NCBI GenBank assembly: GCA_022844405.1
Contig: JALHLV010000005.1
Span: forward strand, 1-64,000
Direction: 5' to 3'
Source of the DNA: Sphingomonadales bacterium
GTDB taxonomy: Bacteria; Pseudomonadota; Alphaproteobacteria; SMXS01
Length of the DNA stretch: 64,000 bases
Within the stretch, counting starts at the first letter, position 1. The number at the start of each line of letters is the position of its first letter. A program made the position numbers and the translations under genes. Shown here piece after piece: positions 33,491-36,270 of this stretch. Under the pieces are notes generated by a model. It was not told where the DNA came from and did not search any database. It saw only the letters and a list, made by a program, of their open reading frames with translations.

Positions 33491-33751
33491 TCAGAGTTTC
33501 CGTGCAGGTTCCCTGAGCCGGACGCCCCGTCCGCCACCCGTGCTCTGGGCACCCTCGCCGATCAGTTCGATGCCGGCGAGGTTGAGGGCGTCGACCACCT
33601 TGGTCAGGCTGTCGACGACCCCCTTGACGTTGCCCTGGCTCGCTTCCATGCGCTGGATGGTCGGCAGCGAGACACCCGCCATGCCGGCAAGCGTCTTCTG
33701 GTCGATGCCGAGAAGCGCGCGGGCGGCCCGTATCTGGGAGGCAGTGATCAA
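33491..33751 (-). CDS. small Xre-family helix-turn-helix regulator
   Basis: An 86-residue DNA-binding protein: MITASQIRAARALLGIDQKTL, then MAGVSLPTIQRMEAS, is a complete helix-turn-helix of the Xre/Cro type, followed by a short tail. It sits directly upstream of the SulP gene on the same strand, so local control of the transporter is the likely role. The AT-rich 33752-33842 gap before it contains the palindrome TATCATGATA (33796-33805), a possible autoregulatory site. Confidence 0.85.
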   Translation of the reverse strand: MITASQIRAARALLGIDQKTLAGMAGVSLPTIQRMEASQGNVKGVVDSLTKVVDALNLAGIELIGEGAQSTGGGRGVRLREPARKL

Positions 33752-33842
33752 GGTGCGTATCCGTTCAGAAAATCACTTGTCCTTATCTGGATGTCTATCA
33801 TGATATTTCAAGCATCATAATAGATGTATGAGACTGCGTATT

Positions 33843-33959
33843 TCACCTCACTGCGATGCGTCCGCCCCAGGCCGTGTCGAGTTCCATCGGCCAGCGCCAG
33901 GGCTCGATGTGGGTGGCGATGGGCACCGGGCTGAAGCCCTGCTTGAAGCGCGCCCTGTC
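33843..33959 (-). pseudogene. 3'-terminal fragment of a second cytochrome P450 gene
   Basis: The minus-strand frame reads RARFKQGFSPVPIATHIEP and WRWPMELDTA, closely matching the C-terminus of the intact P450 encoded at 35005 (PRFKPGSNPQPIAIRIEP, WHLPLEFDAA). At the DNA level 33868-33952 and 35006-35090 agree at roughly 67 of 85 positions without gaps (hand alignment). The match stops where the palindrome of the toxin-antitoxin module begins. No heme-binding part is present, so it cannot be functional. Confidence 0.75.
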
Positions 33960-33993
33960 ATATGTCATATTATTTACGACAGATGACAGGGCG
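33951..33993. promoter_or_regulatory. 43-base palindrome, probable operator of the Xre-RES module
   Basis: Arms CGCCCTGTCAT and ATGACAGGGCG pair perfectly over 11 bases, and further inner pairs (TGTC/GACA) give 17 of 21 matching pairs around one centre. It ends 5 bases before the candidate antitoxin ATG and contains AT-rich sequence (CATATTATTT) suitable for a promoter. Confidence 0.7.
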
Positions 33994-33998
33994 TTTCC

Positions 33999-34478
33999 AT
34001 GACACCTGCGCACCCGATGATCCAGGATGCCGAGATAGACCGCACGGTTGCGTTGCTTGGCGGCCGGCGCACTCTCGATCGGCCCGTGCACAGCCGCCTC
34101 GACGCTCACGACCTGCTCCAGGCCGGCCTACCCGGTCACGCGCTGAAACATCTGGTGAGCCGCGTCGGAATTCTCCGGACCGTCAACAAGGGCGGCCTGG
34201 AGAGGGCGATCGGCATCAGCGTCAGGACCTACCAGCGCCACCAGGAAGCGCTGGACAAGAAGCTGAGTCCCGAGCAGAGCGGCCGGACATGGAAGTTCGC
34301 CGAGATTCTCGGCCGGGCTATCGCACTGTTCGGCTCCCAGCCCGAGGCCGAGGCATGGCTGGAGCGCCCGGCGATGGCGCTCGACCGGCGCAGGCCCATC
34401 GACCTGCTCTCGACACCGGCGGGGGTGGAGTCCGTCGAAGGCCACCTGACGCGTCTCGAGTACGGCGTCTATACATGA
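33999..34478 (+). CDS. Xre/ParS-type antitoxin
   Basis: A 159-residue antitoxin of the Xre/MbcA/ParS type that pairs with RES toxins. A helix-turn-helix is visible (LERAIGISVRTYQRHQEAL), followed by the C-terminal toxin-binding domain (WKFAEILGRAIALFGSQPEA, EAWLERPAMALDRRRPIDLL, typical of DUF2384). ATG 33999 directly follows the palindrome; ATG 34017 is an alternative. The stop overlaps the toxin start (ATGA). The module sits between a P450 fragment and the intact P450. Confidence 0.9.
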   Translation: MTPAHPMIQDAEIDRTVALLGGRRTLDRPVHSRLDAHDLLQAGLPGHALKHLVSRVGILRTVNKGGLERAIGISVRTYQRHQEALDKKLSPEQSGRTWKFAEILGRAIALFGSQPEAEAWLERPAMALDRRRPIDLLSTPAGVESVEGHLTRLEYGVYT

Positions 34479-34978
34479 TGCCGCTGCCGCCGCCGCTGGG
34501 GTCCGGCGGGCTGGTCCTGTGGCGGCTGGATCAGGTACGGTTCAGCGCCGCATGGGATAGCGGCGAGGGCAGCTATCTGGCCGGCGGGCGGTGGAACTCG
34601 CGGGGTGTTCGCGCGGTCTATGCCGCGCTCGATCCCGCCACGGCGATCCTGGAAGTCGCCGTCCACAAGACCTTCGAGGCGCTCGACAGGGTTCCCCACG
34701 TCCTGACGTGGGCCACGATCGCCGATGCCGGGAAGGTGCATGTCGTCAATGGGTCCGACGTGCCCAATCCGGACTGGCTGAGGCCGGGGGCGATCGGCGC
34801 CGGGCAACAGGCGTTCGGCGACACCCTGCTGCAGGCGCATGCCTTCACCCTGATCCCGAGCGTGGTTTCATCCCATAGCTGGAACGTCATGTTCGATCCG
34901 GTAGTGGCCAAAGGCCTTTACGCGGCGGTCGAACAGGAAGCGTTTGTCCTCGATCCGCGCCTTCGGGCGGCGAACTGA
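34475..34978 (+). CDS. RES-domain toxin
   Basis: A 167-residue RES-domain protein; characterised members deplete NAD+ by phosphorolysis or hydrolysis, or ADP-ribosylate targets. The conserved pieces are LWRLDQVRF, GGRWNSRGVRAVYAAL and ATAILEVAVHK, giving the Arg, Tyr and Glu expected in the active site, plus SHSWNVMFDP late in the protein. The length fits the family. The start ATG overlaps the antitoxin stop, so production is coupled to the antitoxin. It appears intact. Confidence 0.92.
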   Translation: MMPLPPPLGSGGLVLWRLDQVRFSAAWDSGEGSYLAGGRWNSRGVRAVYAALDPATAILEVAVHKTFEALDRVPHVLTWATIADAGKVHVVNGSDVPNPDWLRPGAIGAGQQAFGDTLLQAHAFTLIPSVVSSHSWNVMFDPVVAKGLYAAVEQEAFVLDPRLRAAN

Positions 34979-35004
34979 AGCGGGTTTTTCGAAACCGGGC
35001 AGCC

Positions 35005-36270
35005 TCAGGCCGCGTCGAACTCCAGCGGCAGGTGCCAGGGTTCGATGCGGATGGCGATGGGCTGAGGGTTCGACCCCGGCTTGAAGCGCGGGTTGCGGAT
35101 CACCTCCATCAGCATTTTCGTGCCGATCACCGATTCGGCGCGGGCGAGCTGGTAGCCGACGCAGAAATGGGCGCCGAGCCCGAAGCCCACATGCCCGGCG
35201 ACGCCCGCCTGGTAATAGCCGGAGCGCAGTTCCTTCCCGAAATAGAAGTCGTCGCGGAAGATGTCGAACTTGTCGGGATTGGAGAACACCCGGTCGTCGC
35301 GGTTGGCGCCGTAGAGCGACACATGCACGTAGTCGCCGGCCCGGATGGTCTCGCCGTGCAACTCCACGTCGTTGATCGCCCGGCGGGTCTGGGCGCCGGC
35401 GGGGCCGTGGACCCGCATCATCTCGGCGAAGGCGCGCTCCAGCAGTTCGGGGTCGTGCTGGACGGCTTCCCACTGCTCGGGGTTGGCGAGCAGCTGGTAC
35501 CACAGATTGGCGATGGCCTTGTCGGTGGTCTCGGCGCCGGCCACCAGGATCAGGCTGGCGAACGACTTGATCTCCTGCTTGGTCATGCGCGCGCCGTCGA
35601 CCTCGGCGTTGGCGAGCCGCGACAGCAGGTCGTCGCCCGGGTTCTTCGTGCGCTCGTCGATCAGCGGGTCCAGATAGGCGTGGTATTCGGCGTTGGCCTT
35701 CTGGCCCTCGATCCGCAGCGCCGGGCCGCCATTGATACCGTTCATCATCGCCGGATACCAGGTGTGGAACATCTCGTGCGCTTCCTGCGGCAGGTCGAGC
35801 ACGTCGAGGATGACGTTGAGCGGCAGCCTGGTGGCGAAGTCGTCGACAATGTCGATCTCGCCCTTCGCCGCGGCCTCGCCGGCGATGCGGCGGGCATGCT
35901 TCTCGGTGAACTTGCCGATCAGCGCCATGGCGTTGCGCTGGATGGTGGGCAGCAGCGCCGTCAGCCGCATGCCGACGAACTGCGGCGCGACGATGTTGCG
36001 CAGCTTGATGTGGTCCTGGCCGTCATATTCCATCAGCGTCGGGCCGAACACCGCGCCGATATGCTCGCCGTTCGGCGAGGCGGAAAAGTTCACGGTGTCG
36101 CGGAAGACGTTCACCACGTCCTCGTAGCGGGTCACCATCCAGGCGCCGTTCGGCAATTTGTAGGCCGGATAGTGGTCGCGCAGGATCTTCAGCGTCGGAT
36201 ACGGATTGGCGGCGTATCCGGCGCTGCCGAAGATTGCTGGATCGATGGTCGGCTTGGTGATCGTGCTCAT
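35005..36270 (-). CDS. cytochrome P450
   Basis: A soluble bacterial P450 of 421 aa. The I-helix is LILVAGAETTDKA, the ExxR pair is in AEMMRVHG, and the heme loop is FGLGAHFCVGYQLARAE with the cysteine ligand. There is no membrane anchor, so it depends on separate ferredoxin/reductase partners, none of which is in the window. ATG 36270 (MSTITKPTIDPAIFG) is chosen with AGAGA upstream. It is in the accessory insert beside a truncated copy of its own 3' end. The substrate is unknown. Confidence 0.95.
   Translation of the reverse strand: MSTITKPTIDPAIFGSAGYAANPYPTLKILRDHYPAYKLPNGAWMVTRYEDVVNVFRDTVNFSASPNGEHIGAVFGPTLMEYDGQDHIKLRNIVAPQFVGMRLTALLPTIQRNAMALIGKFTEKHARRIAGEAAAKGEIDIVDDFATRLPLNVILDVLDLPQEAHEMFHTWYPAMMNGINGGPALRIEGQKANAEYHAYLDPLIDERTKNPGDDLLSRLANAEVDGARMTKQEIKSFASLILVAGAETTDKAIANLWYQLLANPEQWEAVQHDPELLERAFAEMMRVHGPAGAQTRRAINDVELHGETIRAGDYVHVSLYGANRDDRVFSNPDKFDIFRDDFYFGKELRSGYYQAGVAGHVGFGLGAHFCVGYQLARAESVIGTKMLMEVIRNPRFKPGSNPQPIAIRIEPWHLPLEFDAA

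Follow-up and report, generated by a model that had tools for sequence, protein, structure and literature searches.

A predicted Xre-RES module preceded by a long palindrome

The window, a stretch of 64,000 nucleotides from a Sphingomonadales genome, contains two plus-strand genes that overlap by the four nucleotides ATGA (34475-34478), with the antitoxin gene first in the operon (Table 1). The product of the first gene scores above the cut-offs of the Xre profiles TIGR02293 (122.3 bits, cut-off 57) and NF049845 (103.8 bits, cut-off 90) and also matches PF20432 and PF09722, while the product of the second gene matches the RES profiles NF049844 (114.4 bits, cut-off 110) and PF08808 (89.9 bits). 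Among proteins of solved structure, the antitoxin is related to 8gug_B (VPA0770; E = 1.9e-7) and to Pseudomonas putida Xre (E = 3.7e-6), and its match to ParS is below significance (E = 0.11). The toxin is related to ParT (E = 2.4e-9), 8gug_A (E = 1.3e-5) and P. putida RES. The toxin segments GGRWN, YAA and LE align with ParT and constitute what we take to be the active-site region of the RES toxin. By its domains and gene order, the pair is classified as a type II RES/Xre (ParST/MbcTA-like) toxin-antitoxin module.

The initial annotation described a 43-bp palindrome directly before the antitoxin gene, with 17 of 21 pairs matching and perfect outer arms of 11 bp. Recounting the 43-mer CGCCCTGTCATATGTCATATTATTTACGACAGATGACAGGGCG (33951-33993, centre base 33972) reproduces this description exactly, down to the perfect outer 11 pairs, and a gap of only 5 bp separates the palindrome from xre. 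No other centre in the window, odd or even, reaches at least 16 of 21 pairs. Of 60 dinucleotide-shuffled windows of 64 kb, 15% contain a centre that pairs at 17 or more of 21 positions. At the scale of the whole window the pairing score is therefore unremarkable by itself and would be compatible with a chance palindrome. Within the 100 bp before the xre ATG, however, only 2 of 20,000 shuffles reach a score of 17 of 21. Three places in the window, with 7 registers between them, have perfect 11-bp arms separated by at most 25 bp; the mean in 40 shuffles is 1.8 registers. In the 3.78-Mb genome, a single copy was found both of the full 43-mer and of the core pattern TGTCRY-N7-RCGACA. A second palindrome (33794-33824, 12 of 15 pairs) lies upstream of a minus-strand HTH gene (33491-33751) and is possibly that gene's own operator.

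Table 1 Features at the xre-res locus (positions in the window).
Feature	Position	Strand	Remarks
xre antitoxin gene	33999..34478	+	159 aa; TIGR02293, NF049845, PF20432 HTH and PF09722
res toxin gene	34475..34978	+	167 aa; NF049844, PF08808
Palindrome	33951..33993	.	Holds both boxes and the outer arms 33951-33956 and 33988-33993
Predicted operator box 1	33957..33966	.	GTCATATGTC (pattern GNCANNTGNC); conserved box pair
Predicted operator box 2	33978..33987	.	GACAGATGAC (pattern GNCANNTGNC); 21 bp from box 1
Putative -35, TTGAAG	33943..33948	+	TTGA(A) kept at this distance in relatives; sits in P450-derived sequence
Putative -10, CATATT	33966..33971	+	First base shared with box 1, remainder between the boxes
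Insert (predicted operator, xre and res)	33953..35003	+	1,051 bp; relative to the module-free sister genomes G264 and G386
Degenerate P450 3'-end relic	33866..33952	-	Original tail, displaced to the left of the insert

Two boxes at a nearly fixed spacing precede xre in close relatives

Homologues were drawn from 35 of 385 genomes of the class, 4 of 10 of the order and 42 of 398 of the phylum that gave a match, together with two further genome contig loci and a selection of 23 plasmid loci out of 1,515 records that matched. Matches to a pattern were also obtained in 28 viral-contig stretches, none of which encodes a relative. We call close the 40 loci, among them the window, that reach a score of 100 bits or more (identities of 41-100%); they are partly redundant and related (for example, L008/L009 and L080/L081). 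Most of their promoters align once orientation is matched. A strict scan finds two boxes of the pattern GNCANNTGNC before xre in 36 of the 40 close loci, at a distance of 21 bp in 33 and of 22 bp in three, and in the control, other sequence of 83 loci totalling 246,095 bp, there is a single box pair at 21 or 22 bp. With relaxed thresholds, a pair is found in 38 of the 40, L040 and L088 showing it under this scoring only; L033 (62% identical) and L043 have no box pair under either scoring. A motif-free scan of the same 40 loci, in which four half-sites must agree, singles out a spacing of 21 bp (z = 21.9 relative to shuffles), followed by 14 bp (z = 5.7), with all remaining spacings at 3.3 or below. 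Such conservation across relatives is strong evidence against a chance origin of the palindrome, to which we assign a negligible probability.

The first conserved feature to be noticed was the core TGTC-N11-GACA, which could represent one wide site for a single Xre dimer, the remainder of the palindrome being incidental. This reading does not account well for the surrounding positions. In an alignment of 31 core-aligned loci that includes the window and leaves out the nine of the 40 close loci below the core score (the box count keeps all 40), all 12 specified box positions carry 2.0 bits. Six of the 12 fall inside the core used to choose the 31 loci and six outside it, and the outer positions (-6, -4, -3, 21, 22 and 24, numbered relative to the core) vary no more than the core itself. 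In addition, the three 22-bp loci keep both boxes whole with a changed core gap, and remote loci retain box dyads such as GCCATTTGGC. The core was therefore replaced by the two boxes as the unit of analysis, and a single dimer on one wide site is considered very unlikely. Inside the GNCANNTGNC boxes of the 31 loci, the variable positions are the two central ones and the one separating G from C.

Outside the boxes, pairing is only weakly kept. At steps 6-11 of the outer arms, 2.61 of 6 pairs match, whereas arms compared across loci give 2.33 (a value this high arose in 236 of 5000 permutations), and at steps 8-11 the values are 1.26 of 4 versus 1.15 (1238 of 5000). The bases flanking the boxes are mostly C and G in the relatives (1.5 and 1.4 bits) and T and A, which also pair, in the window. 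Compensatory change between the long arms gave a weak signal (135 of 5000 permutations as high for steps 2-7, 1019 for steps 0-7), and we therefore do not claim that the full 43-bp symmetry is selected. As judged across these loci, what is conserved is the pair of 10-bp boxes and the distance between them. The initial annotation had envisaged two adjacent half-site pairs and looked to conservation of the arms in related modules. The former survive as the pair of GNCANNTGNC boxes in the 36 close loci; the latter is borne out for the 10-bp boxes and their spacing, and only weakly for the 6 bp outside each box.

A palindrome of this kind might also act as an RNA or cruciform hairpin, as in a terminator, an attenuator or the end of a mobile element. 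The plus-strand RNA has a strong predicted fold (-24.8 kcal/mol, z = -9.2), and the left edge of the palindrome lies nearly at the insert boundary (33952/33953). No terminator-like site was found, however, and a transcript beginning at the start proposed below would keep the right arm only (fold z = 0.5). The relatives also keep the boxes, whereas they keep the pairing of the outside arms weakly, and a hairpin role appears highly improbable. On the strength of conservation, an operator role for the box pair is near certain, and the assignment of the boxes as two dimer sites is strongly supported.

The putative promoter and the insertion of the module beside a P450 gene

The putative -35 and -10 hexamers are separated by 17 bp, and a CATATT-like hexamer lies between the boxes in relatives too. 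By hand count the two hexamers match at 8 of 12 positions, and a sigma-70 scan with a limit of 9 detected no plus-strand promoter at the operator; the promoter assignment thus depends on conservation. The inverted repeats overlap this putative promoter just before xre, and transcription likely starts at or near box 2. Close to the centre of the palindrome, the A/C mismatch of the window (33967 and 33977) is common to 28 of the 31 aligned operators, with L003, L007 and L041 showing G there instead. Since an imperfect operator is reported to be required for full promoter activity in P. putida, the central mismatch may be retained by the -10 hexamer.

Comparison with the sister genomes delimits the module as an insert. 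The window contains the final 87 bp of the P450 gene twice (33866-33952 and 35004-35090), once on either side of the insert. At the corresponding site in G264 and G386, this 87-bp end is present once and adjoins DNA matching the small HTH gene and part of the sulfate permease gene of the window. G167 has different DNA next to its P450 gene, and no match was found beyond the P450 gene on that side in G385, G039 and G387. The intact P450 tail of the window matches seven sister copies from six genomes at 72-79 of 87 positions, compared with 63-70 of 87 for the displaced copy, which has lost its stop and reads on into DNA shared with G264. The P450 tail may have been brought by the element or duplicated locally. 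At the place of the putative -35, the sister P450 genes read TTGAAG in G264, G386, G385 and G387 and TTGAAT in G167 and G039. Because TTGAAG of the window sits in the displaced P450 copy, the promoter looks chimeric, with a -35 derived from the P450 gene and a -10 and operator derived from the module.

Matches to a cytochrome P450 query are numerous in this 3.78-Mb genome (G000), which has 40, a high number for its size; the six other genomes of the genus that were searched have 21 to 43. No more than about 2 kb separates two remote Xre-like genes (G000:C29:17908-18270 and C19:53415-53669) from P450 matches, and the same holds for remote Xre-like genes in G385 (C108), G039 (C1) and G387 (C21); such proximity may be no more than the P450 density would give.

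Dyad pairs with other outer bases precede many remote xre genes

Among 43 loci scoring below 100 bits, a GNCANNTGNC pair occurs in three, with a spacing of 22 bp in two of them and of 37 bp in the third. The motif-free scan gave weak signals for these first remote loci (z = 2.3, 2.7 and 1.8 at 20, 21 and 22 bp). Many remote loci instead display dyads at 20-23 bp that are centred on CA..TG and differ in their outer bases, such as ACCATTTGGC..ACCAAATGGA around TATAAT. Extra remote loci were fetched from genome sets in which 23 of 197 and 28 of 194 gave a match. A RES hit anywhere in the locus was then required, which 109 of 140 loci pass (31 left out), 79 of the 109 having the hit within the adjacency window. 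Removal of duplicates and of short or N-containing flanks reduced 69 remote loci to 59. In these 59, spacings of 20, 21, 22, 23 and 24 bp hold CA-type pairs in 3, 7, 19, 9 and 0 loci, respectively, whereas shuffle means lie at 0.40-0.56 over this range (0.40, 0.40 and 0.44 for 21, 22 and 23 bp) and other spacings between 13 and 35 bp hold 0 to 3 loci each. When the CA requirement is dropped, 22 bp is still found in 17 loci versus 1.82 in shuffles and 23 bp in 8 versus 2.02, with 6 loci each at 20 and 21 bp (1.50 and 2.00 shuffled).

The thresholds for remote loci were set after 43 of them had been viewed, and the later-fetched loci were therefore used as a hold-out. A CA-type pair at 21-23 bp is present in 19 of 38 explored loci (shuffles 0.88) and in 14 of 20 hold-out loci (shuffles 0.75), some of which are kin to explored loci or to each other; the antitoxin of L144, for example, is 95% identical to that of L060. 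L122 is the place of the explored locus L061 fetched again and was set outside both counts. With L122 included, 34 of the 59 remote loci have a CA-type pair at 21-23 bp, and 25 have none.

Arg76 of the antitoxin covaries with the first base of the half-site

Arg76 in the window antitoxin aligns with Arg67 of P. putida Xre (6gw6; numbering counted by hand), a recognition-helix residue whose substitution in the R67A mutant is reported to abolish repression (PMC12204516). All 47 loci with Arg at this position, the window included, have G at base 1 in three or all four of their half-sites, while none of the 25 loci with Ala, Ser, Thr or Asn does. Counted by half-site, base-1 G occurs in 185 of 188 at the Arg loci versus 8 of 100 at loci with other residues, as raw counts across base compositions. 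Close loci entered this comparison under the relaxed thresholds, and all 38 of those counted carry Arg. On a midpoint-rooted tree built with the helix left out, the residue and the base each change three times, always together, so the independent evidence for the Arg-G association amounts to three events. Outside the 47 and 25 loci, L157 and L161 (Arg) and L159 (Lys) all have G at base 1.

Comparison with characterized Xre-RES systems

The closest described counterpart is the Xre-RES/S4 system of P. putida KT2440 (PMC12204516; PDB 6GW6, 9R35), which shares both protein families with the window, along with a palindromic autoregulatory operator just before xre (putative in the window) and the arginine equivalent to Arg76. 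According to that paper, a 4:2 complex (Xre4RES2) represses its own promoter through the palindrome S4; free Xre is monomeric and a weak repressor, and the RES toxin is needed for the DNA-binding Xre dimer and holds two such dimers per complex. AlphaFold 3 placed the two dimers "about 20-bp apart" and a second site was proposed, on the basis of a crystal contact, the partial repression of a deletion mutant and a grey-zone AlphaFold 3 ipTM of 0.6 (PMC12204516). The proposed distance of about 20 bp compares with 21 bp between the window dyads that we read as dimer sites. The two systems differ in that the boxes of the window are equally conserved, whereas in P. putida S4 is strong and the second site was deduced (PMC12204516).

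A fragment of the P. putida antitoxin matches 57 plasmid records, of which five loci (62-91% identical) were read. Half-sites in these P. putida-type plasmids are GGNA-like with exceptions, in contrast to GWCA in the window. L161 contains the dyad GGTAAATGCC twice, 21 bp apart, and L159 the pair GGCATATGCC/GGCAAACGCC at the same distance; in L157 the pair GGCGTTTCCC/GGGAAACGCC, also 21 bp apart, is less regular and was found by eye. In all three loci a RES gene is annotated and a frame containing GRW is present. In L158 and L160, the 180 bp scanned held no operator boxes, and the RES annotation and GRW-containing frame are absent; these Xre genes on Pseudomonas plasmids are possible orphan antitoxins.

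The NatR-NatT 4:2 complex of P. aeruginosa binds and represses its own promoter region, and the main text of that report is without the words palindrome, operator or inverted repeat (PMC11535050); NatT is described as carrying a Flap domain (PMC12204516). VPA0770-0769 of V. parahaemolyticus (PDB 8GUG) contains sequence relatives of both window proteins, and in ParST (PDB 6D0H/6D0I) the toxin ParT is related to the window RES, ParS giving the non-significant match noted above. A search for operator terms in passages of the NatRT, SlvAT and GndRX papers found no operator sequence.

Discussion

We interpret the palindrome as the autoregulatory operator-promoter of a type II Xre-RES module, gripped by both antitoxin dimers, and place the probability of this reading at roughly 85%. 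The two GNCANNTGNC dyads have centres 21 bp apart, or two helical turns, so both boxes would face the same side of the DNA, and their mirror arrangement gives rise to the overall palindrome. The 21-bp two-box layout fits the prediction of the P. putida model, which leads us to propose one dimer per box and one spanning hexamer. From conservation and this analogy we infer binding of the window Xre to the boxes, bridging by the hexamer, a block of transcription and the promoter hexamers themselves. Each Xre dimer would read one box, and one hexamer, which we consider probable, would span both and cover the -10 region; binding to both boxes would block transcription. Upon loss of antitoxin, the complex would no longer span both boxes and the operon would be derepressed.

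Alternatively, two independent Xre dimers or complexes could bind cooperatively through contacts between neighbours, without a hexamer bridged by RES. The same box data fit this arrangement, and sites two turns apart would equally allow bound neighbours to touch, as other repressors do. It would agree, too, with the in vitro finding that one P. putida 4:2 complex bound a single S4 duplex even with excess DNA (PMC12204516). The monomeric state and weak activity of P. putida Xre alone, and the two dimers held by RES, speak against it (PMC12204516), as does a distance of exactly 21 bp in 33 of the 40 close loci, the outcome expected of a rigid spacer, although remote loci vary between 21 and 23 bp. 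On balance, binding through neighbour contacts is doubtful, and we favour the RES-bridged hexamer.

Extended to the Xre-RES family at large, the operator would consist of two CA..TG dyads, spaced by 21-23 bp, that enclose the -10 and are read at the same time by two RES-held Xre dimers, with the toxin dimer as the ruler and the residue at the Arg67 position setting the outer base; we lean slightly towards this generalization. With the toxin dimer as the ruler of the repressor, promoter occupancy would report the toxin:antitoxin stoichiometry directly. If true, Arg for G would be a simple specificity code separating co-resident modules.

Our searches of open-licence full texts turned up no family-wide description of a two-dyad Xre-RES operator. 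Comparative sequence here lends independent support to the unsettled second DNA site of the Xre-RES repressor, in the form of two dyads that keep an almost constant distance of two helical turns, both in close relatives and in remote loci whose half-sites differ. The spacing of the boxes makes the bridging model directly testable, and the Arg-G correlation proposes a base that may be read by the key arginine. Taken together, the box layout suggests a sequence-only route to the operators of the NAD-depleting RES toxin family.
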